A DNA stretch of 61,044 nt, taken from positions 1 through 61,044 of IMG/VR virus record IMGVR_UViG_3300012931_000291, one strand, 5' to 3'. Position 1 is the first letter of the stretch; every line of letters begins with the position of its first letter. This document shows, piece after piece, positions 6,112-39,597 of the stretch. A model generated the notes under the pieces. The model worked only from the letters and a program-made list of their open reading frames with translations. It was not told where the DNA came from and did not search any database. Position numbers and translations under genes: made by a program. The stretch comes from a virus.

Positions 6112-6450
6112 ATGTACGAGGTTCACAAGACGATGACTGTGGCTGGGGCTCATCATCTTAACTTGAACTACGAGTCCAGGTGTTCTAGTCTTCATGGACA
6201 TAATTGGCGAATTACAGTTGTTTGCCGCGTTAAGGATGATGGCCTAGACGTCAACGGCATGGTCGTAGACTTCACTGACATCAAGAAGATCGTCAACAAG
6301 TTCGACCATGCCAACCTCAATGATTTCGTCGTCCAGCCGACGGCGGAGAACATCGCGAAGTACCTCTACGAGGAGATTCCACACTGCGCCAGGATTGAGG
6401 TCGAGGAGACTGAAGGGAATAAGGTAGTATATGAACCCGATCGAGACTAG
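6112..6450 (+). CDS. queD: 6-carboxytetrahydropterin synthase
   Basis: Converts 7,8-dihydroneopterin triphosphate to 6-carboxy-5,6,7,8-tetrahydropterin, the second step of preQ0 synthesis. The 112-residue length is normal for QueD. Zinc ligands are visible as H15 (in GAHHL) and the HGH pair at residues 28-30, with the catalytic cysteine C24 just before. The C-terminal EVEETEGNKVVYE matches the family end. ATG 6112 is chosen because GGAGAAGAAAGGG precedes it; the longer frame starts inside the helicase gene. It is the first gene of the deazaguanine cluster and overlaps queE by 20 bases. Confidence 0.93.
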   Translation: MYEVHKTMTVAGAHHLNLNYESRCSSLHGHNWRITVVCRVKDDGLDVNGMVVDFTDIKKIVNKFDHANLNDFVVQPTAENIAKYLYEEIPHCARIEVEETEGNKVVYEPDRD

Positions 6451-7045
6451 TATTGGCATCAAGATGAAGATTTCAGAGATATTTTATAGTTTGCAAGGTG
6501 AGGGTTACTGGGCAGGGATCCCAGCGGTGTTCGTTCGCTTCTCTGGATGCAATCGTTTTTGCTCGTTCTGCGACACCCAGCACAACTTCTTCTCCACGAT
6601 GTCTGTCAAGGACATTCTCCAGAAGGTGATGAGTCTCGGATCGGCACGAAGGGTAGTCGTGACTGGCGGTGAGCCGATGACACAGTTGGAAGGTTTTCAC
6701 GATCTCTCCCTCGCTTTCGCGGCCGCGGGGTACGAGGTTCATCTCGAGACGAACGGCGACTTCGAGGTCGATCCCTCGGAAGTGGATTGGCTTACAGTCA
6801 GCCCCAAGGGACCGGAGTGGAAGCAGAAGATCGGCGATGAGATCAAGGTCGTCTACACCGGTCAGTCCAAGGAGGAACTCGAGCAGTACCTAGAGTCCTC
6901 AGACAAGGTCTACTTCAAGCATCGCTTCCTCCAACCCTGCTCCACACCGGAGGGTTCCAACGTCGAGGCGACGGTCGAGTACATCAAGGCCGATCCGCGC
7001 TGGCGACTCTCCCTTCAGATTCACAAGTTGATTGGTGTAAGGTGA
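6431..7045 (+). CDS. queE: 7-carboxy-7-deazaguanine synthase (radical SAM)
   Basis: Radical SAM enzyme that rearranges 6-carboxytetrahydropterin to 7-carboxy-7-deazaguanine. The cluster motif C40-X3-C44-X2-C47 (GCNRFCSFCDTQH) is intact, preceded by the IFYSLQGEG substrate-binding segment. VVTGGEPM is the SAM-binding GGE motif, and LETNGD and VSPKGPEW are further family motifs. At 204 aa it has normal QueE length. ATG 6464 (MKISEIFYS) is an equally possible start. It follows queD directly, giving queD-queE coupling. Confidence 0.93.
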   Translation: MNPIETSIGIKMKISEIFYSLQGEGYWAGIPAVFVRFSGCNRFCSFCDTQHNFFSTMSVKDILQKVMSLGSARRVVVTGGEPMTQLEGFHDLSLAFAAAGYEVHLETNGDFEVDPSEVDWLTVSPKGPEWKQKIGDEIKVVYTGQSKEELEQYLESSDKVYFKHRFLQPCSTPEGSNVEATVEYIKADPRWRLSLQIHKLIGVR

Positions 7046-7048
7046 AGT

Positions 7049-7153
7049 ATGAGGACTGGGCAGGATATTCCTGAGTTTTGTGGTTGTGTAGAAAGGTTGT
7101 GGGGTGCAAGATTTCAGAGAAAACTAGGGAAAATATGCGACTTGCCCAACTAA
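7049..7153 (+). CDS. Possible 34-aa peptide
   Basis: A short frame begins 3 bases after the queE stop with a weak AAGGTGAAGT ribosome site and encodes 34 residues with three cysteines. No family is recognised and it may be noncoding. The 163-base gap between queE and folE holds nothing else I can support. Confidence 0.25.
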   Translation: MRTGQDIPEFCGCVERLWGARFQRKLGKICDLPN

Positions 7154-7208
7154 AGAGATGGAAAATATATGGGAGACACGGAGAATGAAAAATGGAGGAG
7201 GTACAGTG

Positions 7209-7910
7209 ATGGAAGAGAGGTGCCAGCGGTGCGGAGCTGCCTTGACTGGCGGCAACTCCGAGGAAGGAGATTTGACTCTCTGCGTGAAGTGCGAAGAGCG
7301 ATACCTCGCGGCCAAGCAGTCCCTCCAGTCGGAGTTCGTAGGCGTGGCGAAGATCGAGAAAGGGATGACGACGATCCTCGAAGGTCTCCATGATGCCTTC
7401 GGCCTGGACCTGGAGGACGTCAATTTTAAGGACACGCCGAGGAGAGTGGCCAGGGCGTACGCGGAGATCTTCCGCGGCGTGAAGGACACGGACAAGCAGG
7501 TTCAGCGGATCCTCGGAACCTCCTTCCCTGCTGAGGTGAAGGAGATGATCGTCGTGAAGGACGTCAAGGCCTTCTCGATGTGTCCTCACCACTTCTTGCC
7601 CGTCGAGTACGACATCACTGTCGCCTACATCTCGAACGGGAAGGTCCTAGGGATCTCGAAGCTGTCCCGCCTGGCTGAGGTCTTGGCCAAGCGTCCAGTC
7701 CTTCAGGAGACCTTTACTGAGGAGATTGCAGAGGAACTCTTCAAAGGCGTCGAGGCCTTGGGTGTAGGCGTCTGGGTCGAGGGAACGCACTACTGCATGA
7801 AGATGCGGGGTGCTAAGCAGGTTCAAGCCAAGACAGTGACCTCGGCAATCCGGGGCTGCTTCGAGGAACCAGAAGTTCAAGCGGAGTTCTTGTCTTTGAC
7901 GAAGGGCTAG
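7209..7910 (+). CDS. folE: GTP cyclohydrolase I with N-terminal zinc ribbon
   Basis: Converts GTP to 7,8-dihydroneopterin triphosphate, the first step of the deazaguanine pathway. The C-terminal 190 residues contain the FolE signatures: DTPRRVARAY, the SMCPHHFLP zinc/active-site segment, KVLGISKLSRL, and THYCMKMRG with the second zinc cysteine. An unusual N-terminal zinc ribbon (CQRC...CVKC, residues 5-28) is fused in front. ATG 7209 is chosen because GGAGGAGGT lies just upstream; in-frame ATGs at 7158 and 7185 lack ribosome sites. The last base of its stop codon is the first base of the CRISPR-repeat-like element that follows. Confidence 0.93.
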   Translation: MEERCQRCGAALTGGNSEEGDLTLCVKCEERYLAAKQSLQSEFVGVAKIEKGMTTILEGLHDAFGLDLEDVNFKDTPRRVARAYAEIFRGVKDTDKQVQRILGTSFPAEVKEMIVVKDVKAFSMCPHHFLPVEYDITVAYISNGKVLGISKLSRLAEVLAKRPVLQETFTEEIAEELFKGVEALGVGVWVEGTHYCMKMRGAKQVQAKTVTSAIRGCFEEPEVQAEFLSLTKG

Positions 7911-7940
7911 TCGTTCTCAGATGAGAACGTGGATTGAAAC
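7910..7940 (+). CRISPR. Solitary type I-C-like CRISPR repeat (no array)
   Basis: A 31-base element between folE and queC has the full architecture of a type I-C (Cas5d-processed) repeat. It starts with GTCG, has a hairpin with arms CGTTCTC (7912-7918) and GAGAACG (7923-7929) around a 4-base AGAT loop, and ends in the canonical 3' handle GTGGATTGAAAC. Classical I-C repeats are usually 32 bases with a 5-base loop, so this one is a base shorter. No second copy occurs nearby and there are no cas genes. It lies on the transcribed strand. This matches the solitary repeat units known from phages, some of which act as RNA anti-CRISPRs. Identity strong, function inferred. Confidence 0.75.
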
Positions 7941-7993
7941 GAGGAAGAAACGGTCTGGGAAGAATTCCTGGCCCTTATTACTAGGAGGAAGAA

Positions 7994-8644
7994 ATGCGAG
8001 ATAAGCTTATCGTGACGAGTGGGGGCATGGATTCGATCACTCTCCTCTACGAGCAGAAGGACAACATTAAGCGAGCACTGTCCTTCTGGTATGGGCAGAA
8101 GCACAAGAAGGAGCTCGACTTCGCGCGGTGCAACTGTGAGAAGCTGGGAATAAGCTGGTCGCTTATCGACCTGTCCAGCCTCCTTCCTGATCTCAAGTCC
8201 AACTTGCTTTATGGGGGTGGTGACATTCCCGAAGGGCATTATGAGGACGAGAACCAGAAGCTCACTGTCGTCCCGTTCAGGAATGGGATTATGCTCTCGA
8301 TCGCCTGTGGCATCGCGGAGTCCTGCGGGTGCAAGTCCGTCCTGATCGCCAACCACGCTGGTGACCATGCTATCTACCCGGACTGCCGGGACACGTTTAT
8401 CGAGCCGATGGCTAACGCGATGAAGTATGGGACCTACGCAAGGATTGTCCTTGAGGCCCCTTATACATACAAGACCAAGCGTGATATCGGCCTCATCGGC
8501 CATGATCTGGGTATTGATTACGGGAATGATACTTGGACTTGCTATAAGGGTCGCGTTCGCCATTGCGGCAAGTGTGGTGCATGCACTGAACGAAGGGAGG
8601 CTCTTGCGGGCTTCGACAACACGGTTTACGAGGCTTGGCTATGA
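7994..8644 (+). CDS. queC: 7-cyano-7-deazaguanine synthase
   Basis: ATP-dependent ligase-type enzyme converting 7-carboxy-7-deazaguanine and ammonia to preQ0. The PP-loop SGGMDS is at residues 9-14, followed by LSFWYGQKHKKEL, the VVPFRNGIMLSIA segment and the ANHAGDHAIYPDCR motif. The C-terminal zinc site is present as CYKG, CGKCGAC and TERREA. Length of 216 aa is typical; it is not the longer Gat-QueC fusion that leads to amidated deazaguanine derivatives. AGGAGGAAGAA precedes the ATG. It overlaps the next gene by ATGA. Confidence 0.94.
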   Translation: MRDKLIVTSGGMDSITLLYEQKDNIKRALSFWYGQKHKKELDFARCNCEKLGISWSLIDLSSLLPDLKSNLLYGGGDIPEGHYEDENQKLTVVPFRNGIMLSIACGIAESCGCKSVLIANHAGDHAIYPDCRDTFIEPMANAMKYGTYARIVLEAPYTYKTKRDIGLIGHDLGIDYGNDTWTCYKGRVRHCGKCGACTERREALAGFDNTVYEAWL

Positions 8645-8940
8645 AGCTGTCAGAATTGCGTCCGTGCGACAAGTGTGGGGGACCGATCAATCCGATCTTC
8701 CACGTCGTCAGATATTCGCCCGCTGTCGTCAGTCAGCAGGCAGCGAGGGAGACGCTGGGCCTCAGCCAGATGTTCGGTGGTCACCTGGGTCTGGCGGAGG
8801 TGATGACCTCGAAGCCGGACGTAGTTTCGGTAGCCATGGACGACAAGGAGCACGCCGAGCTTGGTGTGGAGATCTTCCTCTGCAACGACTGCTACTGTGG
8901 CGATGTCAACCTTGCCGTCCTGGCAAAGAAGAAGGAGTAG
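8641..8940 (+). CDS. Small zinc-binding protein in the deazaguanine cluster
   Basis: A 99-residue protein with CDKCGGPI at the N terminus and CNDCYCGD near the C terminus, probably one zinc site formed by two CxxC knuckles. The start is ATG 8641, overlapping the queC stop, which implies coupled translation. I know no named family for it. Its position between queC and the glycosyltransferase-like gene suggests an accessory role in DNA modification, possibly sequence recognition or delivery to DNA, but nothing in the sequence proves this. Confidence 0.65.
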   Translation: MKLSELRPCDKCGGPINPIFHVVRYSPAVVSQQAARETLGLSQMFGGHLGLAEVMTSKPDVVSVAMDDKEHAELGVEIFLCNDCYCGDVNLAVLAKKKE

Positions 8941-8945
8941 ATTTC

Positions 8946-9617
8946 ATGGAGAAACTTACGAGAAAGGTTATGATCGGAACTCCCACATATGACGGACGTC
9001 TTGATGTTCGATATGTCGACGCGTTAATCAATACGATCAGGACAAGTCCTGTGGACACTTATGTGTTTCCTGTTTTCGTCCCTGGGGATGCGTTGGTTCA
9101 GCGCGCGCGGAACTACTTGTTTAGTTTAGCAATGCGTGCACAGGTGGACGATTTGGTCATGATCGATTCTGACATGGGGTGGGCTCCTGCTGATTTCTGG
9201 CGGTTGATGGCACATGACGTCCATTTTGTTGGAGCTCTTTGTCGACAGAAAATTGATGAAGTAGTACTAACAATTTACGCCCACGAAAATGCTATCCCCC
9301 AAGAATCAGGTTTGTTGGAGGTAGATGGTGTGGGGGGTATGGTTCGACTCACGTCTTTCGCGCTGAACAAGTTGTGGAATATGTCAAGTCCATACAAAAA
9401 CGGACTTGAGGTGTCACGAATGGTGTACGAAGTTACTATCGACGACAAGGGTGAATTAGTGGGAGAAGATCTTGCCGTGTGTAATAAGTGGAGATCTTTG
9501 AAGGAGCATGTGTATGTAGACACAACTATTTGTTGTGATCATGTTGGATTAAAGGTGTTTTCTATTCCGAAAGTCAGTAAGAACAAGGAGCAAGTAGATG
9601 AAGACCACACTCGATGA
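8946..9617 (+). CDS. Putative glycosyltransferase, GT-A fold
   Basis: A 223-residue protein starting MIGTPTYDGRLDVRYVDAL, with VQRARNYLFSLAM and LVMIDSDMGWAPADFWRL. The pattern of an N-terminal beta-alpha unit followed by a DxD-like DSDMGW motif is typical of the small GT-A (Anp1/GT2-like) glycosyltransferases common in phages. It lacks a membrane anchor. ATG 8946 is preferred; the longer open frame runs through queC in another frame. It is more AT-rich than queC and queF on either side. Because it is inside the modification cluster it might decorate a deazaguanine base, but phage glycosyltransferases also act on host surfaces. Confidence 0.55.
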   Translation: MEKLTRKVMIGTPTYDGRLDVRYVDALINTIRTSPVDTYVFPVFVPGDALVQRARNYLFSLAMRAQVDDLVMIDSDMGWAPADFWRLMAHDVHFVGALCRQKIDEVVLTIYAHENAIPQESGLLEVDGVGGMVRLTSFALNKLWNMSSPYKNGLEVSRMVYEVTIDDKGELVGEDLAVCNKWRSLKEHVYVDTTICCDHVGLKVFSIPKVSKNKEQVDEDHTR

Positions 9618-10047
9618 GATCAAGAAATGGGTCCCGCTGGCCAAGATGGAGTCAGCTGGCGAGGATGAGTTCAGGAAGAGGATCCAGGGCGCGATGGAGG
9701 TCGAGCTCCCACACGAGAAGCTTACACTTATCCCCTATCTTGGTAAGCCTGAGGTCGTGGAATACGCATCGGCAGAGCTCATAGGCCTCTGCCCTGTGAC
9801 CTTCCTCCCTGACGTCTACAAGATCAAGATTCGCTACGTCCCCGGGGAGAAGATTCCAGAGCTCAAGTCGCTGAAGTATTACTTCCTTGACTACGCAGAG
9901 CTCCCCATCTCCCACGAGCATCTGGCGTCGAGGATCTACGACCAGTTCAACGCGCAGGTGAATCCGCAGCTTCTGCGTGTCATCCTGGATGTCGCTGTCC
10001 GAGGGGGGATCATGACGACTGTCGACATCGGGACGGATGAGATATGA
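9598..10047 (+). CDS. queF: NADPH-dependent 7-cyano-7-deazaguanine reductase
   Basis: Reduces preQ0 to preQ1. The catalytic cysteine is C65 in LCPVTFLPD, with the general acid D72; H106-E107 occupies the substrate-binding position. The NADPH-binding signature E-L-K-S-L-K-Y-Y (residues 88-95) is present, which separates true QueF reductases from the archaeal QueF-like amidinotransferases that lack it. Length 149 aa matches unimodular QueF. It overlaps the glycosyltransferase gene by 20 bases, with GGAGCAAGTAG as ribosome site. It implies that preQ1 rather than preQ0 is the base precursor available to DpdA. Confidence 0.85.
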   Translation: MKTTLDEIKKWVPLAKMESAGEDEFRKRIQGAMEVELPHEKLTLIPYLGKPEVVEYASAELIGLCPVTFLPDVYKIKIRYVPGEKIPELKSLKYYFLDYAELPISHEHLASRIYDQFNAQVNPQLLRVILDVAVRGGIMTTVDIGTDEI

Positions 10048-10088
10048 TGTTATCCATGCTGATGCTCGACCGGATCAACCTGGCATAG

Positions 10089-10238
10089 ATGAGCGCAGTA
10101 AAGTGCGGAGTAAAGGAGCCTATGCTCATCATCGGCCCTGGATCCGCTGAGGATCTGCGCCAGGAGCTGGTCGGACGAATTGGAAAGTTCATCCCGAAGA
10201 GCGTAGTAGAAGGAAAGAAGGAGAGTACATGCAGCTAA
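10089..10238 (+). CDS. Possible small protein, 49 aa
   Basis: An open frame of 49 residues (inner ATG at 10122 after AAAGGAG) fills the gap between queF and dpdA and overlaps the dpdA start by 10 bases. It is continuous, apart from one TAG at 10086-10088, with a 14-codon frame that begins at ATG 10044 overlapping the queF stop. No family is recognised. It may be a real short gene, the remnant of a longer one, or noncoding. Confidence 0.35.
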   Translation: MSAVKCGVKEPMLIIGPGSAEDLRQELVGRIGKFIPKSVVEGKKESTCS

Positions 10239-11107
10239 GTATGCTTCTGGATTCGGGAGCATTCTCCGCGTGGACGAAGCACTCGTCAGTCGATTTGGAC
10301 GCTTACATCGCGTTCATCAAGGAGCACAAGGATGACTTCGAGTACTACGTTAATCTCGACTGCATTCCTGGCGAGTGGGGACGGAAGCCGACGCGCGAGG
10401 AGATCGAGGCCTCAGCGGCGAAGGGGTATGCGAACTACGAGTACATGCTGTCTAAGGGGATTGAGAAAGACCGTCTGATCCACGTTTTCCATCAGCACGA
10501 GGACTGGAAGTGGTTGAAAAAGATGGTCAAGGAGATCCCTTACATTGGCCTTTCCCCCGCCAACGATTCTACTCAGCCGAGCAAGAAGCGGTGGCTGGAC
10601 GAGTGTATGATGTACACGACTGACGACTGTGGCTATCCTTTGGTCAAGACTCATGGGTTTGCTGTCACGGGCGTCGGTTTCATGTACCGCTACCCTTGGT
10701 TCTCAGTGGATTCCTTGACTTGGCGCCTCTGCGCTGGGTATGGCGGTATCTTCGTACCCGCCTGGAACATGAAGGGGGAGTTCATCTACAGTCGCACGCC
10801 CTTGGCGACGAAGATCACGGTCCGCGGCTCGACGAGGGAGATCGTCATGCGGAGGTTTGACTTCCTCTCCACCCAGGAGAAGGACAAGGTCTACGAGTAC
10901 ATCGCTTCCAAGGGCTTTAAGATGGGCAAGTCTGTCATGGAAGATGGCAAGGAGAAGATTATTGAGGAGGGACTTGTCAACTCGCACAAGCAGCGGGAGC
11001 TCCTGAACATCATGTTCTTCGAGGACTTCCTAGCCCGGATCGACCCCTTCCCGCACCGCCGGTACAAGGGTAAGGAGCTTCTGGTTCAAGGCTTCAACTT
11101 TACATAG
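10229..11107 (+). CDS. dpdA: DpdA-type 7-deazaguanine DNA transglycosylase
   Basis: Predicted to exchange guanine in phage DNA for the 7-deazaguanine base made by the upstream genes. It belongs to the phage branch of the tRNA-guanine transglycosylase superfamily. The N-terminal LDSGAFSAW supplies the conserved aspartate; YVNLDCIPG, IHVFHQHED, YIGLSP and HGFAVTGVGFMYRYPW followed by SVDSLTW are typical of phage DpdA. Length 292 aa is short compared with bacterial DpdA, as expected for phages. AAGAAGGAGAGTAC precedes ATG 10229. It closes the modification cluster. Confidence 0.85.
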   Translation: MQLSMLLDSGAFSAWTKHSSVDLDAYIAFIKEHKDDFEYYVNLDCIPGEWGRKPTREEIEASAAKGYANYEYMLSKGIEKDRLIHVFHQHEDWKWLKKMVKEIPYIGLSPANDSTQPSKKRWLDECMMYTTDDCGYPLVKTHGFAVTGVGFMYRYPWFSVDSLTWRLCAGYGGIFVPAWNMKGEFIYSRTPLATKITVRGSTREIVMRRFDFLSTQEKDKVYEYIASKGFKMGKSVMEDGKEKIIEEGLVNSHKQRELLNIMFFEDFLARIDPFPHRRYKGKELLVQGFNFT

Positions 11108-11599: not shown

Positions 11600-12638
11600 G
11601 GAGCGGCTACTTCAATCGCTTCAGAACGCGATCGTGGGCTCGGAGAAAGGAGAGTTTTTGAATAATGCTTTCTCCTTCAAGGACGGCTATGTCCACACCT
11701 TCAAGGACTTCGTCGCCTTGTCGATCCACCTGGGGGACGAGTTCAAGTTTCTCAAGGGGTCGATCCGGGCCACTGAGTTCTTTTCCCTCTTGTCCAAGTA
11801 CACGATGGAGAAAGTTGATATCAATGTCCTCGACAACGGGCTGGAGGTTTGTAGTGGTCGGTCTAAGGCTCTATTCACCTTTCTCGAAGAGTCCGTCCTC
11901 AAGCAGGTCGATAACATGGCCCTCGAGTCGCTCGTCTGGTACCCGATGCCTGACGACTTCCGCGACGCCCTCTCCTTCTGCCTCCTCGGCGTCCGCGAGT
12001 ACAATCTCGAAGGCGTCAGGGTGAAGGGGAAGCTTGCTCTCTCGGTCGATTCCAAGAGGGTAAACTACTTCGAGATGAAGGAGACGGCCGGCGATTTCCT
12101 CCTCGAGGAGAAGGTCGTCACCGAGCTCCTCAAGTTCCAGGACTTTGTCCAGCTGGCCCAGTCCGACCAGCGAGTGTTCGTCAAGCTCGGCGATGGAACT
12201 ATTGTCTCTGGGCGAAGGAAGATGGACGTTGATTACCCGCTTGACAAGATCACGGCGATGATCGAGCAGATCACTCCCACCGAGGAAGACCCGAAGGGCA
12301 AGCTGCCTACGAGCTTCAAGTCGATGATTGGCCGCGCGTCGGTCCTCTCCTCCGAGATGTCTGGCCTGGCGGTTATCAAGATGGTCTTCGACAAGGAGTT
12401 CATCGAAGCGTCGTCCGAGCGTGCGACTGGAAAGTACGACGAGAAGCTCGATTGGGAGGAGATACCTGCTGGCCTCGATCAGCCGATCACGGTGTTTCTC
12501 GAGTCGTCCGCCGCCTTGTATGCGCTCGAGAAGTCGAGGACCTTCGCCATCAAGTCGACCGAGGGTCTGAAGCGCCTCGTCTTCATCGGCGATAACTGCA
12601 AGTGTTTCCTGGCCGCGTACACCGAGGGCAAGGAATGA
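11586..12638 (+). CDS. Sliding clamp (DnaN-like)
   Basis: A 350-residue protein with the layout of a three-domain beta clamp. VKGKLALSVDSKRVNYFEM corresponds to the STDGHRL strand of DnaN. GRRKMDVDYPLDKI corresponds to the GxFPDYxxVIP segment. SFKSMIGRASVLSSEMSG corresponds to the AxxRVSILSSE helix that begins the last domain, and the C terminus ends in a strand pair as in clamps. Sequence identity to bacterial DnaN is low. It would tether the polymerase encoded immediately downstream (ATGA overlap) and be loaded by the clamp loader at 15552. Confidence 0.7.
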   Translation: MEVNRERLLQSLQNAIVGSEKGEFLNNAFSFKDGYVHTFKDFVALSIHLGDEFKFLKGSIRATEFFSLLSKYTMEKVDINVLDNGLEVCSGRSKALFTFLEESVLKQVDNMALESLVWYPMPDDFRDALSFCLLGVREYNLEGVRVKGKLALSVDSKRVNYFEMKETAGDFLLEEKVVTELLKFQDFVQLAQSDQRVFVKLGDGTIVSGRRKMDVDYPLDKITAMIEQITPTEEDPKGKLPTSFKSMIGRASVLSSEMSGLAVIKMVFDKEFIEASSERATGKYDEKLDWEEIPAGLDQPITVFLESSAALYALEKSRTFAIKSTEGLKRLVFIGDNCKCFLAAYTEGKE

Positions 12639-15316
12639 AACAAGGCTTCTTCGAGCAGCTCGGCCTGGAAGTGACCAAGACCTCCAGGCCGAGTTCTTCT
12701 CGTTCCGGCCCCCCTCGCAGGTCCTCCAACCTGACCAAGAAGGAGAATGAGACCTGCGAGGATTGCGGGTTGTACAAGACCTGCCAGTCGCCAAAGATGC
12801 CCCCAACGGGCAAAGGCGAGAAAGGCATCCTTATCGTCGCAGAAGCTCCGGGGAAGACAGAAGATGAGGAGGGGATCCAGCTGATCGGCAAGTCGGGCCA
12901 CTACCTGAGGACAGCACTAGAAGACCTCGGGGCTGACCTGGATCGTGACTTCTGGAAGACAAACGCAGTGATCTGCCGGCCGCCGGACAACCGCACGCCG
13001 ACGCCCAAGGAGCTTCGGATCTGCCGAGAAAACCTCCTGAACACGATCGAGGTCTACCAGCCGAAAGTCGTTGTCTTGATTGGCCAGCCGGCCTTCGACT
13101 CCTACCTGGGGCCTAGGCTGGTAGGCAGAATTAAAAATGTGCCGTATAGTAGTTGGGTGGGAATGACAATCCCCGACCAAGAAACCGGGCGATGGATCTG
13201 CCCGCTCTACCACCCCTCCTACCTCCTCCGCCTCCAGAATGAAGGCAGGAGAGATCGGGAGGAGCAGGAGGACAAAGTCCTCGCCGCGATGTACCGGCGA
13301 CAGCTCCAGCGTATTATCGACTTGGCCGATGAGCCCGTGCCCACCCTCGACTATGGCGATATCCAGACGACAGACGACGAGGCGACAGCAATCGAGTGGA
13401 TCAAGGCCGAGATGGCCGAGCAGCCCCGATGGCTCACCTTCGACTACGAGACCACTGGCCTGAAGCCCCACAGGGCGGGACACGGGATTCGAGTGGTCTC
13501 CTTCTGCGATGGGGTCAAGACCCGAGCGTTCAAGAACACCATGGAGACGGGGAAGTGGTGGGCCAAGCTCCTTCAGTCGTGCGACGAGAATCATACTGGG
13601 GTCATCGCGCACCACATGTCCTTCGAGGAGATGTGGTCGATGGAGATCCTGGGCACGAAGTTGGACATGAAGTGCCGCTGGGACACTATGCTCGGCGCGC
13701 ACATCATCGACAACAAGCGGTCGTGCGGATTGAAGTTCCTCGTCTACACGAAGTTCGGCGTCCTGGGATACGACCAGGACGTTGACTACTACATCGAGAC
13801 CAAGAAGCAGGGAGAGGACAACGACTCCTGCAACTCATTCAACCGGATTGACGAGGCTGACCAGAAGAAGCTCCTACGGTATGGTGCCGAAGATTCCTTT
13901 TTCACCTACAAGATCTTCCTCGATCAGTACGAGACGTTCAAGAAAGATCCCCACACCGGCCGTGGCGCAGCTTTCTTCTTCGAGTCCGTGGGCAGCTTGG
14001 CACGGATGCAGCAGAATGGCGTCTGCGTCGACATGGACGAACTCAAGTCGGTGAAGACCAAGATCACCAGGCGCCTCGAGTGCATCAAGGACCGAATCGA
14101 CTCCAGTCCCGAGGTCAAGAAGTGGGATGGCCTGACGGCGTTCAACTTCAAGTCAGGCCCCCAACTCTCCCACCTCCTGTACGACATCATGGGCATCGAG
14201 GTCAAGAAGAAGACTGGGTTGGACAAGGCCAGTACTGACGAGGAAGCTCTGGAGAAGATCGACGCGGATATTCCGATGGTTCATGATATTGTCGACTACC
14301 GCCATTGGTCGAAGGTCTTGACGACCTACCTGGGTCAGTACGAGCGGGAGGTGATGAATGGCCTGCTCCATGCCAACTTTGGTCTGGGCAACGTGGATAC
14401 CTTCCGCTCCTCCTCCTTCGACCCCAACCTCCAGAACGTGCCAAAGCGAGACGAGCAGGTCAAGAACTTGATCCGCTCGATCATCCGTCCGCGGCCGGGT
14501 CATCGGATCATCGAGTATGACTACAAGGCTCTGGAGGTCTCGATCGCGGGCTGCGTCTTCCGGGACCCCAACTGGCTCTCCTATTGCCGGGACACGTCGA
14601 AGGACATGCACCGCGATACAGCGATCGAGATTCTGTACCTGACTGACGAGTATGGGATGCCTTGGGAGGGGATCGAGAAGAAGATCGCCAAGCAGGTGCG
14701 GCAGGCGTCCAAGAACGGCTTCGTCTTCCCTTCAGTCTACGGCTCGTCTGGTAAGTCAGCTGCGGCAGGGATGTGGGAGCAGCTCCCAGACGACATCAAG
14801 CGTCATCTCAGGGTACACATTGGCATCAAGGACCTCGAAGGCTTTACTAAGAGGATGATTGCCTACGAGAAGGACTATTGGGGTGTGCGCTACCCCATCT
14901 ACGACAAGAACCGCCGTGATTTGTTCAAGTCCTACGAAAAGAAGGGGTATATTGAGCAAGTCACCGGGTTCCGCTGCTACGGGCCGATGTCGTTCATGCA
15001 AGTCGTGAACTACCCGGTTCAGGGCCCAGCCTCACACGTCAAGCTCAAGACCTTGTCCGAGGTGTCGCAGAGGATCGTCGACGAGAAGAAGGACATCTTG
15101 CCGATCATGGAGATCCATGACTCGATGCTCTTCGACGTGAATCCTGACGACGAGGCTTGGCTGGATGAGACAGTCCGCTACCATGGTATGGAGAAGGTGG
15201 CGCAGGATTGGAAGTGGATCATCGTCCCCCTGCTCCTCGAGAAGGAGCGGAGCGAAGTAGACGGGACCTGGGCCGTGATGAACGGATGTGGGTATCTTGG
15301 AGGAGGCAGAGAATGA
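12635..15316 (+). CDS. DNA polymerase family A with N-terminal uracil-DNA glycosylase
   Basis: An 893-residue fusion. Residues 40-230 form a family 4/5-type uracil-DNA glycosylase: C41-X2-C44 plus a later pair spaced C-X15-C are the four Fe-S ligands, AEAPGKTEDEEG is motif 1 and LYHPSYLLR motif 2. Residues about 250-440 are a 3'-5' exonuclease (FDYETTGL, HHMSFEEMW, YGAEDSFFTY). The polymerase domain has motif A EYDYKALE near 627, motif B RQASKNGFVFPSVYG near 690, and motif C as IHDSM near 828, where HDE is usual. ATG 12635 overlaps the clamp stop. It is the replicative polymerase and may repair uracil in its template. Confidence 0.9.
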   Translation: MKQGFFEQLGLEVTKTSRPSSSRSGPPRRSSNLTKKENETCEDCGLYKTCQSPKMPPTGKGEKGILIVAEAPGKTEDEEGIQLIGKSGHYLRTALEDLGADLDRDFWKTNAVICRPPDNRTPTPKELRICRENLLNTIEVYQPKVVVLIGQPAFDSYLGPRLVGRIKNVPYSSWVGMTIPDQETGRWICPLYHPSYLLRLQNEGRRDREEQEDKVLAAMYRRQLQRIIDLADEPVPTLDYGDIQTTDDEATAIEWIKAEMAEQPRWLTFDYETTGLKPHRAGHGIRVVSFCDGVKTRAFKNTMETGKWWAKLLQSCDENHTGVIAHHMSFEEMWSMEILGTKLDMKCRWDTMLGAHIIDNKRSCGLKFLVYTKFGVLGYDQDVDYYIETKKQGEDNDSCNSFNRIDEADQKKLLRYGAEDSFFTYKIFLDQYETFKKDPHTGRGAAFFFESVGSLARMQQNGVCVDMDELKSVKTKITRRLECIKDRIDSSPEVKKWDGLTAFNFKSGPQLSHLLYDIMGIEVKKKTGLDKASTDEEALEKIDADIPMVHDIVDYRHWSKVLTTYLGQYEREVMNGLLHANFGLGNVDTFRSSSFDPNLQNVPKRDEQVKNLIRSIIRPRPGHRIIEYDYKALEVSIAGCVFRDPNWLSYCRDTSKDMHRDTAIEILYLTDEYGMPWEGIEKKIAKQVRQASKNGFVFPSVYGSSGKSAAAGMWEQLPDDIKRHLRVHIGIKDLEGFTKRMIAYEKDYWGVRYPIYDKNRRDLFKSYEKKGYIEQVTGFRCYGPMSFMQVVNYPVQGPASHVKLKTLSEVSQRIVDEKKDILPIMEIHDSMLFDVNPDDEAWLDETVRYHGMEKVAQDWKWIIVPLLLEKERSEVDGTWAVMNGCGYLGGGRE

Positions 15317-16508: not shown

Positions 16509-17231
16509 ATGGACTTAATGAAGAGTTTCAAGGAAGTCGACAAGATCGGCGCGAAGGGCTTTAAGCTCTACGACGTTTTTCTCGCCGCCTTCGTCGCGCT
16601 TCTGCTCCTGTCGAACATCATCGCTGTCAAGCTGATTGCGGTGGGGCCTATAGTCCTAACCGCCGCAGTCTTCCTATTTCCCCTGTCCTACATTTTCGGC
16701 GATGTGCTCACGGAGGTCTACGGCTATGCGAGGTCTAGGCGGATGATCTGGCTCGGCTTTGCGGCCAACATCCTGATGGTCCTTGCCTTTTGGTTGGCTA
16801 TCTCTCTGCCGGCGCCTGTGTTCTGGAAGAACCAGGAAGCGCTCGTCACTGTGCTCGGCTCTGTTCCGAGGATTGTCCTCGCCTCCCTGATAGCATACTG
16901 GGTTGGTGAGTTCATGAACTCCTACGTCTTGGCAAGGATGAAGGAGTGGATGATCAAGTGGGATCCGAATCACAAACACCTCTGGATGAGGACGATCGGC
17001 TCGACCATCGTGGGCGAAGGCCTTGATTCTATACTATTTGTTATCATCGGTTTCTTTGGGACTATGCCGTTCGGGGCAGTACTGATGATGATCTTTTGGC
17101 AGTGGGTATTCAAGTGTGGAATCGAGATTGTGTTCACACCCCTCACTTACAAAGTCGTTGCCACGGTGAAGAAGGTGGAAGGCGTTGACACCATTGGCGC
17201 TGCGACATACAGTCCGTTGGTCTTCAAGTAA
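16509..17231 (+). CDS. Queuosine precursor transporter (YhhQ/VUT family)
   Basis: A 240-residue integral membrane protein with about six hydrophobic segments. Family signatures include LLLLSNIIAVKLI, FLFPLSYIFGDVLTEVYGY, FWKNQEALVTVLGSVPRI and the C-terminal TIVGEGLDSILFVIIGFFG. This is the YhhQ/QPTR (formerly DUF165) family, which imports preQ0 or preQ1 into bacteria. In this phage it would supplement de novo synthesis by the queD-queE-folE-queC-queF genes with precursor salvaged from outside. GTAAGGAGG precedes ATG 16509. It lies 5 kb from the modification cluster, between the clamp loader and recombination genes. Confidence 0.9.
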   Translation: MDLMKSFKEVDKIGAKGFKLYDVFLAAFVALLLLSNIIAVKLIAVGPIVLTAAVFLFPLSYIFGDVLTEVYGYARSRRMIWLGFAANILMVLAFWLAISLPAPVFWKNQEALVTVLGSVPRIVLASLIAYWVGEFMNSYVLARMKEWMIKWDPNHKHLWMRTIGSTIVGEGLDSILFVIIGFFGTMPFGAVLMMIFWQWVFKCGIEIVFTPLTYKVVATVKKVEGVDTIGAATYSPLVFK

Positions 17232-22424: not shown

Positions 22425-23074
22425 TGGCAGAGAGCAAAGACTTGACCCCGCTGGATCAGCCGCCGGATACGACACCAGTTTTCAGGGAGAAGATGGAGAA
22501 GATTTTCGCGTCCGTTTACTCCCAAGACGACCCTGAGCTCCCTCTTCTTCCTGAGAAGCATCGGATGTTTGCCTTCCGATGGGCTACGGAGTTCAGGACG
22601 AACGCTGACTGGGGGAGGATTTTCCATGTCAGTGATACACGGATTGCCGAGTGGAAGAAGAACCCGAAGATTCTTAAGTATTATTTAATTATTCGGCGGA
22701 AGCAGAATCTCGTTTTGATGGAGAGGATGAAGCTTCTCGAGACGAAAGCTTTCCAGAAGTTGTATGAGCTCTTAGATATGGATATCACGGATAAGAATGC
22801 TGATGTCATCAGGAAGACAATTATGAATGTCCTGGGTGTCGATGTTGAAGGAACCCTCAACTTGAGGGTGACTGCGGAGGCCAGGGCCGTAGCCTCCACA
22901 AGTGCATTGGGCGGTGAGGCTAAGGCAGCAGCCAAGGTTGAGACGAGTCTAGATATCAAGAAACTGCGCGACAGGCTAGACGAGATGGCCCTTTTGGAGG
23001 ACTTAGTAATAGTAGAACCGGAACCTGTAGAGTCAGATGTTAATGACAAGGTAGAAAATAATGATAATATATAA
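22424..23074 (+). CDS. Putative terminase small subunit
   Basis: A 216-residue protein with a central DNA-binding-like helical region: KHRMFAFRWATEFRTNADWGRIFHVSDTRI reads as an HTH, followed by an oligomerisation-type helical stretch around KLLETKAFQKLYELL. Size, HTH and location before the large terminase gene support a small terminase role, recognising the packaging site. Between it and the large subunit lie 2.5 kb of inserted small genes, including a homing endonuclease. ATG 22424 follows the previous stop by a 1-base overlap. Confidence 0.6.
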   Translation: MAESKDLTPLDQPPDTTPVFREKMEKIFASVYSQDDPELPLLPEKHRMFAFRWATEFRTNADWGRIFHVSDTRIAEWKKNPKILKYYLIIRRKQNLVLMERMKLLETKAFQKLYELLDMDITDKNADVIRKTIMNVLGVDVEGTLNLRVTAEARAVASTSALGGEAKAAAKVETSLDIKKLRDRLDEMALLEDLVIVEPEPVESDVNDKVENNDNI

Positions 23075-23804
23075 AGTTATTTGTTATTGTACTGGTATGC
23101 TTTATATCGGGAAAACATGTATGTCGTTGAATGCGCGTAAGTATTATCATTTGTATGATGCAAAGCGAGGGAGTAGAGTTTATTTTCATAATGCTCTTCG
23201 AAAGTATGGCGTCGGGAACTTTGACTGGCAAGTGATTGATCAAGCTGAGTCCAAACAAGAACTTAACGAGAAGGAAAAGTACTGGATCCAGTTCTATAAG
23301 TCGTTTGATCCGCAGTTTGGTTATAATTTGACGATGGGTGGAGATGGAAATACAGCAGGAAATAAATTGTCAGGAGAAACGAAAAGAAAAATAGGAGCAG
23401 CTCTTGAAGGGCATATAACATCCATTGAGACAAGACAGAAAATTAGTGTTGCAAATAAGGGACGTATTTACCCCGAAGAATATGGAAAGAAAATGAGTAC
23501 TATTTTGAGAGGAAGAAAACAACCCAATGAAGTTGTACAGAAAAGAGCAAAATCTCTTAAGGGACATATAACATCTGATGAGACACGAAGAAAGATTGGG
23601 ATTGCAAATAAAGGAAAGATACGAACCGAAGAACAAAAAGAACAACAGCGTAGAAAAATGAAAGGGCGAAAGTTACCTGAGTATGCTGGGCAACATGTAG
23701 GTAGGACACAATCTAAAGAAATCAAAGACAAGATTTCTATTAAGATGAAACAAGTGTGGCAAGAAAGACGGTCAGGAGGAACAGAATGGACAGGAAAAGT
23801 TTGA
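23061..23804 (+). CDS. GIY-YIG homing endonuclease with NUMOD3 repeats
   Basis: A 247-residue free-standing homing endonuclease. The GIY-YIG catalytic part is at the N terminus (YKVICYCTGMLYIGKT, then NALRKYGVGNFDWQVI and ELNEKEKYWIQFYKSF with the catalytic glutamate). Four NUMOD3-like DNA-binding repeats follow (ETRQKISVANKG, ETRRKIGIANKG and relatives). The gene is clearly AT-richer than its neighbours, overlaps the small terminase end by 14 bases and contains the ribosome site of the next gene. These are signs of recent insertion between terminase-region genes. Confidence 0.92.
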   Translation: MIIYKVICYCTGMLYIGKTCMSLNARKYYHLYDAKRGSRVYFHNALRKYGVGNFDWQVIDQAESKQELNEKEKYWIQFYKSFDPQFGYNLTMGGDGNTAGNKLSGETKRKIGAALEGHITSIETRQKISVANKGRIYPEEYGKKMSTILRGRKQPNEVVQKRAKSLKGHITSDETRRKIGIANKGKIRTEEQKEQQRRKMKGRKLPEYAGQHVGRTQSKEIKDKISIKMKQVWQERRSGGTEWTGKV

Positions 23805-38793: not shown

Positions 38794-39597
38794 ATGAGAG
38801 GATTTCCAGATCTTCCAATTGACATAGAATCTGACAACCCGTTCTACGCCGGCTTCGCTTCCGCGACGCTGATCAAGGCGGAGGAAGAGGGCTCCAAATG
38901 GGTCGTCTACCTCGAGGCGTCGAACGAGCAGCAGGACCAGGAGGAAGAGATCACGGTCATGAAGGCGTTGAAGGACGCCGCCAACTACTACATGACACAC
39001 GGAGTGATCTCCTGGGACCATCAGCACAAGCTCCAGAAGGATCCAGCATACATCATCGGCGAGCCTCTGGACGTAGCCTTCACCTCAGCCAAGTCAACCT
39101 TGGTGAAAGCGATGCTCTACAAAGAGAACAAGCGAGCGCAGGGGGTCATGGAGAATGTTCTATCGAAGACCTCCCGCTTCGGCGCTTCCATTGGGGGTTA
39201 TATCCTGAAGAAGGCGATTGAGAACGCGCAGAAATTCATTCGCCGCGTTATCTGGGACGACACTGCCATCACCCACAAGCCTGTCAATGATACGACACTC
39301 GGACATGTTCAACTTGTCCCTTTCACATCCTTTGCCAAGAGTTTGACTGCGGGAGGCGGCGTAGACGCGAGTTCGTTCTCGGGGGGCAGGGCCTTGATTG
39401 GCGAGTCACTCCAAGGTGCCAAGTTCGGCGAACCGGAGATGACAAAGCTATTCAAAGCCTTCCTCAAGGGAGTAAAGGAGGGTACGCTGGGGAGTTATCA
39501 AGACACTCGTGCCTGGGTCGCGGAGACAGTCCCGTTGGGAGTCTCGACTGACCAGGTCATGAACTTCATATTCGCAAAGCTCACGAAGAAATCCTAG
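38794..39597 (+). CDS. Prohead maturation protease
   Basis: A 267-residue protein with the layout of HK97/U35-type prohead proteases: YLEASNEQQDQEEE strand region, a His in YYMTHGVISWDHQHK and a Ser in SKTSRFGASIGGY, which would make a His/Ser catalytic pair. Residues 184-206 contain a motif nearly identical to residues 26-48 of the major capsid protein, probably a self-cleavage or recognition site. Followed by scaffold and capsid genes, as usual. TAGGAGTGAGTGG precedes ATG 38794. Confidence 0.8.
   Translation: MRGFPDLPIDIESDNPFYAGFASATLIKAEEEGSKWVVYLEASNEQQDQEEEITVMKALKDAANYYMTHGVISWDHQHKLQKDPAYIIGEPLDVAFTSAKSTLVKAMLYKENKRAQGVMENVLSKTSRFGASIGGYILKKAIENAQKFIRRVIWDDTAITHKPVNDTTLGHVQLVPFTSFAKSLTAGGGVDASSFSGGRALIGESLQGAKFGEPEMTKLFKAFLKGVKEGTLGSYQDTRAWVAETVPLGVSTDQVMNFIFAKLTKKS

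Follow-up and report, generated by a model that had tools for sequence, protein, structure and literature searches.

A solitary type I-C-like CRISPR repeat in a phage deazaguanine operon as a candidate RNA anti-CRISPR

Single CRISPR repeats outside of arrays are known from many viruses: the SRUFinder survey recorded 2,103 solitary repeat units (SRUs) on viral sequences from hits that reached 90% or more in both identity to and coverage of a known CRISPR repeat, with a minimum bit score of 41.1 against a database of 17,823 repeats, and several of these viral units are RNA anti-CRISPRs (Camara-Wilpert et al. 2023, PMC10651486). Among prophage SRUs whose host has CRISPR, 83% match a subtype that is present in this host, and for RacrIF1 the hairpin-side product accounts for most of the inhibition (PMC10651486). 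The closest described system is RacrIC1 of a Bifidobacterium pseudocatenulatum prophage, a type I-C unit that inhibits type I-C, lies 11 nt downstream of acrIC5 on one bicistronic RNA, and is predicted to engage the type I-C Cas5 (PMC10651486). Type I-C uses Cas5d in place of Cas6, and cutting of the repeat leaves an 11-nt 5' handle while a Cas5d subunit remains on the 3' hairpin (PMC5965380). Ectopic single repeats can also make guides, as in CreTA (PMC9458426).

A repeat-like element between folE and queC

The window, by which we mean the whole analysed stretch of 61,044 nucleotides, belongs to a contractile-tailed phage with genes for terminase, portal, major head protein, tail sheath, and baseplate, and its early region encodes a DnaG-type primase, DnaB helicase, RecA, a family A polymerase, and a cluster of deazaguanine genes. 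In a single protein (12602-15316), the polymerase is combined with an exonuclease domain and, at the N terminus, a uracil-DNA-glycosylase domain. A homing-endonuclease-like gene of the GIY-YIG/NUMOD3 kind (23061-23804) lies just ahead of the terminase region, and the ORF upstream of the major head protein gene (38794-39597), for which no Pfam family was found, contains a stretch weakly similar to the N-terminal part of the head protein (46%, E 1.7e-5). The deazaguanine DNA-modification set (6431-11107 and 16509-17231) comprises QueE, FolE, QueC, a QueF-like protein, a queuine-transferase-like DpdA candidate, and a transporter of the Vut_1 (YhhQ) family. The presence of a QueF-like gene hints at a reduced base of the preQ1 type. 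The features relevant to the element studied here are the following.

6431-7045, plus strand: queE-like gene for a radical SAM protein, part of this cluster (PHROG 2076, E 4e-31)
7158-7910, plus strand: folE, GTP cyclohydrolase, directly upstream of the element (PHROG 2197, E 9e-52)
7902-7976, plus strand: possible outer helix around the repeat hairpin, an inverted repeat of AAGGGCTAG (7902-7910) and CTGGCCCTT (7968-7976)
7910-7940, plus strand: solitary type I-C-like CRISPR repeat of 31 nt, from sequence, fold, chance expectation, and comparison with array repeats
7912-7929, plus strand: repeat hairpin and presumed Cas5d binding site (stem 7912-7918/7923-7929, loop AGAT 7919-7922)
7930-7940, plus strand: UGGAUUGAAAC, equivalent of the 11-nt type I-C crRNA 5' handle (handle length from PMC5965380)
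7941-7993, plus strand: leader from the repeat to queC with the queC Shine-Dalgarno sequence AGGAGG and no second repeat
7994-8644, plus strand: queC, preQ0 synthase, directly downstream (PHROG 1550, E 2e-57)
9598-10047, plus strand: QueF-like gene (PF14489, E 7e-17)
10229-11107, plus strand: queuine-tRNA-ribosyltransferase-like gene, probably a DpdA-type DNA-modifying enzyme (PHROG 887, E 7e-47)

The element GTCGTTCTCAGATGAGAACGTGGATTGAAAC (exactly bases 7910-7940) is read on the coding strand of the two genes around it, which point in one direction. It begins with the G that closes the TAG stop codon of folE (7908-7910), and hence follows folE at a distance of 0 nt and ends 53 nt ahead of the queC ATG. 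The likely start of folE itself is 7209, after a GGAGG, as judged from start context. The 31 nt consist of 20 nt followed by the 11-nt handle and have the form of type I-C repeats, with a GTCG start, a palindromic stem, and a 3' end of the GTGGATTGAAAC type. Folded as RNA, they form a hairpin of -9.0 kcal/mol in which a perfect 7-bp stem (CGUUCUC/GAGAACG) closes the loop AGAU, and they leave a single-stranded UGGAUUGAAAC that matches the type I-C 5' handle exactly. Based on the work on type I-C repeat processing (PMC5965380), we infer that Cas5d would bind the hairpin, and the cut is predicted between 7929 and 7930. Such an arrangement is not expected by chance. The window contains a single copy of the 12-mer GTGGATTGAAAC, for which an order-1 Markov model predicts 0.009 copies (looser matches are no more frequent than chance would give), and the combination of GTCG, a stem of at least 7 bp, and GTGGATTGAAAC is expected 5e-8 times per window under the same kind of model. 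Rfam gave no match for the element, and neither a sigma-70-like promoter just upstream of the repeat nor a clear terminator was found; a terminator role of the hairpin was rejected as no T run follows it.

The unit is solitary. There is no second handle near the repeat and no direct repeat in 7810-8060, the 100-nt flanks contain neither a full nor a partial second repeat and align to the unit no better than shuffled flanks do, and no Cas family was detected among the 30 window ORFs scanned with PADLOC. It is a virus-encoded, intergenic, single unit, located between the folE stop codon and queC in a genome whose scanned ORFs include no cas genes. All structural claims of the initial annotation were thus borne out, namely a 31-base element between folE and queC with GTCG, 7-bp hairpin, AGAT loop, and type I-C handle, without a second copy or spacer pattern nearby and without a cas gene among the 30 window ORFs scanned.

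For the assignment to type I-C, 84,980 species genomes were scanned with the pattern GTCGYTCTCN{2,6}GAGARCGTGGATTGAAA, which fixes part of the stem. This yielded 62 loci that are mostly true arrays of Paenibacillus, Bifidobacterium, Clostridia, and Chloroflexi. The nearest array repeats adjoin cas7/csd2 together with cas8c/csd1 in Bifidobacterium and Ornatilinea (loci L058 and L085 adjoin both genes) and cas7/csd2 in Paenibacillus (locus L050 adjoins this gene), and because these closest array repeats lie next to cas7c and cas8c genes we consider the anatomy of the element to be that of type I-C, as had been proposed initially. Stems were compared directly since a MAFFT alignment of the repeats had gaps in the stem. 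Compared to these arrays, the element keeps the 7-bp stem but differs in the loop, which has 4 nt, and in one compensatory change (C-G to T-A in the third stem pair), and stem pairing is preserved across array and solitary units alike. Pattern scans found the exact stem neither in the 84,980 genomes nor in IMG/VR, and the exact element has no match in either so that no host could be named in this way. Among array consensus sequences, that of Nguyenibacter (L081) comes closest with 5 edits. With 4 edits, a unit on a Synergistales contig (L060) is nearer than any array repeat but is itself solitary, and the best repeat in this sample, drawn from a genome scan with part of the stem fixed, has an edit distance of 4 over 32 nt (about 87.5%).

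Solitary type I-C units in other phages and in bacteria

Three scans of IMG/VR returned at least 286 units whose stem has 5 bp or more. At least 220 of them lie away from contig ends, and at least 103 of the latter have no second handle within 320 nt. Several of these 103 or more solitary type I-C-like hairpin units (loci L088-L261) are found 0-5 nt past a same-strand stop codon. One of the scans selected units preceded by TA and hence favours stop codons; statistics on unit position were drawn from the unselected subset only. Within this subset (n=65), 40 units are intergenic, 22 of them flanked by a pair of genes that run in one direction, and 5 start at most 5 nt from a same-strand stop, compared to 3.9% of random intergenic positions, which amounts to a weak enrichment of solitary type I-C units just after stops.

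The order of stop codon, SRU, Shine-Dalgarno sequence, and gene recurs in several IMG/VR phages. Eight loci (L089, L092, L097, L126, L128, L146, L164, and L207) resemble the window in that the repeat follows a same-strand stop by 0-4 nt, mostly just ahead of the next start, but differ from it in their stem sequences. At L097 and L126 the repeat includes the last base of the stop codon as it does in the window, and the layout of the window is closely repeated at L164, L207, and L233. At the loci inspected for their flanking genes (L089, L092, and L097), these are not folE or queC; at L092 the repeat lies between two genes of which the upstream one is a tail gene.

Solitary type I-C repeats were also seen in contigs of bacterial genomes (L035:4879-4911; L079, 7379-7411 on the minus strand; L049:7020-7051; L057; L060). 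Two of them, L035 and L079, have terminator-like hairpins with T runs closely downstream of the repeat.

An RNA decoy and competing explanations

We consider it fairly probable that the element is a type I-C repeat mimic in a phage operon that acts as a candidate RNA anti-CRISPR by trapping Cas proteins of the host, which by analogy to the validated RacrIC1 (PMC10651486) appears to be the best reading. The folE-queC message would be transcribed through the repeat, and Cas5d of a type I-C host would recognize the hairpin and cut after G7929. The upstream product would then be folE RNA that carries a hairpin with bound Cas5d at its end, and the downstream product would start with an authentic 11-nt crRNA handle, so that Cas5d, Cas7, and perhaps Cas8c might be trapped in dead-end complexes on RNAs useless as guides; fewer working Cascades would mean inhibition. 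Such a decoy is favoured by type I-C anatomy far beyond chance, by nearest array repeats that adjoin cas7/csd2 and cas8c/csd1, by the compensatory stem change, by a coding-strand position directly past a stop that resembles that of RacrIC1, by the 103 or more solitary type I-C units in IMG/VR, several of them with the same layout, and by the retention of Cas5d on the 3' hairpin after cutting (PMC5965380). Against it count the lack of an exact-stem array in 84,980 genomes with the closest array repeat at 5 edits, the lack of Cas5d in 99 genomes of the phylum of the archaeal bin that contains the contig (see below), and the lack of a sigma-70-like promoter just upstream and of a clear terminator. 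Of the initial proposal of an RNA anti-CRISPR, the type I-C likeness and the solitary state stand; the bin yielded no cas1 and no type I-C array, and its phylum no Cas5d in 99 genomes.

By severing folE from queC, the Cas5d cut might also affect expression. The element might primarily act in cis, with Cas5d cleavage altering stability or translation such that the operon reads out the type I-C system of the host and Cas trapping is secondary or absent. Its place between two genes of one pathway, the recurrence of the layout in other phages, and the possible outer helix that ends just upstream of the queC Shine-Dalgarno sequence are in line with this explanation. However, the genes that flank such units elsewhere are unrelated (tail proteins at L092, no assignment at L097 and L089), which fits better with a mobile decoy, and the weakly supported outer helix is barely beyond shuffles (fold z-scores of -2.4 for 7898-7980 and -1.5 for 7890-7993). 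We regard a primarily regulatory role of cleavage as unlikely. A combination of both ideas seems improbable at present and is put forward as speculation: intercistronic type I-C repeats that overlap or adjoin a stop codon might form a recurrent class of their own, mRNA joints that Cas proteins can cleave, at which a Cas5d cut would both trap Cas proteins and retune the flanking genes, in this case a deazaguanine DNA-modification operon, so that the phage could sense and counter CRISPR with one element.

Phages can acquire host repeats, and the unit could be left over from a CRISPR array, or from recombination with one in a host genome, and have no present function. A perfect hairpin with intact handle and a compensatory change in the stem would be surprising in such a remnant, and its exact placement at a stop codon in a compact operon is unlike that of a random relic, so that we judge this origin improbable.

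Alternatively, repeat and downstream sequence could yield a crRNA-like guide that sends Cascade elsewhere, either as the remnant of a mini-array or as an ectopic repeat of the CreA type. The intact handle is indeed followed by 53 nt of leader RNA, and there is precedent for guides from ectopic single repeats (CreTA, PMC9458426). Nonetheless, no second repeat exists in 7810-8060 or in the 100-nt flanks, positions 7941-7993 have no database match among phages, and this stretch carries the queC Shine-Dalgarno sequence as a leader would. Of the seed matches identified within the window, none is flanked by 5'-TTC, the PAM of type I-C. With neither a PAM-flanked match nor a second repeat found in the window or among phages, a mini-array or CreA-like guide was not supported, and we see quite a small chance for one-spacer guides in general.

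It is also conceivable that the virus is archaeal and that what its unit imitates is a CRISPR subtype other than type I-C in an archaeal host, given that the contig is held in an archaeal genome bin of 2.7 Mb and that a capsid homologue (51%) was binned with one other genome of the phylum. Yet neither cas1 nor a type I-C array was detected in this bin (83% complete), a search of 99 genomes of the phylum, the bin among them, turned up no Cas5d, and the pattern GTCGN{12,18}CGTGGATTGAAAC occurs in 0 of 98 related genomes and thus only in the window. Moreover, codon usage of the phage correlates with that of the bin at 0.66 as opposed to at least 0.93 among contigs within the bin, Shine-Dalgarno matches of 6 or more are seen for 53% in the phage versus 13% in the bin, the tetranucleotides differ from those of the bin, and the replication genes (DnaG, DnaB, PolA, and RecA) are of bacterial type. 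Since tetranucleotides, codon usage, and Shine-Dalgarno strength all set the contig apart from its bin, it is probably a bacterial phage that was mis-binned with an archaeal genome. The capsid homologue leaves some doubt on this point, but it is poor evidence because its contig (in archaeal bin G114) begins with Illumina adapter sequence (L104:1-47), an assembly artefact. The archaeal bin was hence judged unlikely as the host on the grounds of missing repeat, Cas5d, and cas1 as well as discordant tetranucleotides, codon usage, and Shine-Dalgarno strength, and mimicry of an archaeal subtype strikes us as very improbable.

No close relative of the phage was found, and relatives with homologous queC (41-47% identity) or capsid are too distant and lack the type I-C handle. 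When the window was checked against 868 spacers of arrays whose repeats are similar, those listed gave short matches only, the longest being 25 nt at 88%, and none was convincing.

Intercistronic hairpins are common, but an ordinary mRNA stabilizer or pause site with accidental CRISPR likeness is hardly credible in view of the chance expectation of 5e-8 per window and an exact handle outside of the hairpin.

Comparison with described solitary repeats

As a candidate type I-C RNA anti-CRISPR inside a DNA-hypermodification operon, the element raises the prospect of two counter-defences on a single transcript. That solitary type I-C repeats recur directly past stops further suggests that many RNA anti-CRISPRs could be released from mRNAs by the very nuclease that they trap.

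Like the viral units of the SRUFinder survey, the one described here is intergenic, single, similar to CRISPR repeats, and without cas genes; unlike them, it stays below 90% identity to every repeat in our sample (a genome scan with part of the stem fixed), and it lies inside an operon while many of the others directly follow a promoter (PMC10651486). CreA RNA of CreTA is likewise an ectopic CRISPR repeat outside of an array, but it needs a guide match to the toxin promoter and usually has degenerate repeats (PMC9458426), whereas no such match was found for the window unit. RacrIF1 from a Thiocystis violascens prophage is a repeat mimic processed by the crRNA endonuclease of the host, as our candidate may be, yet it belongs to type I-F, depends on Cas6f, and is a promoter-driven small RNA. 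The closest parallel is RacrIC1, which is also a solitary type I-C repeat directly 3' of a protein gene and, as presumed for the window unit, is co-transcribed with this gene and predicted to engage the type I-C Cas5; RacrIC1 is active in experiments, whereas the window unit is a candidate that resides in a deazaguanine operon and overlaps the folE stop codon by one base. This kind of element is thus already known from many phages, and what is new is a further example in an unusual but recurrent operonic position.
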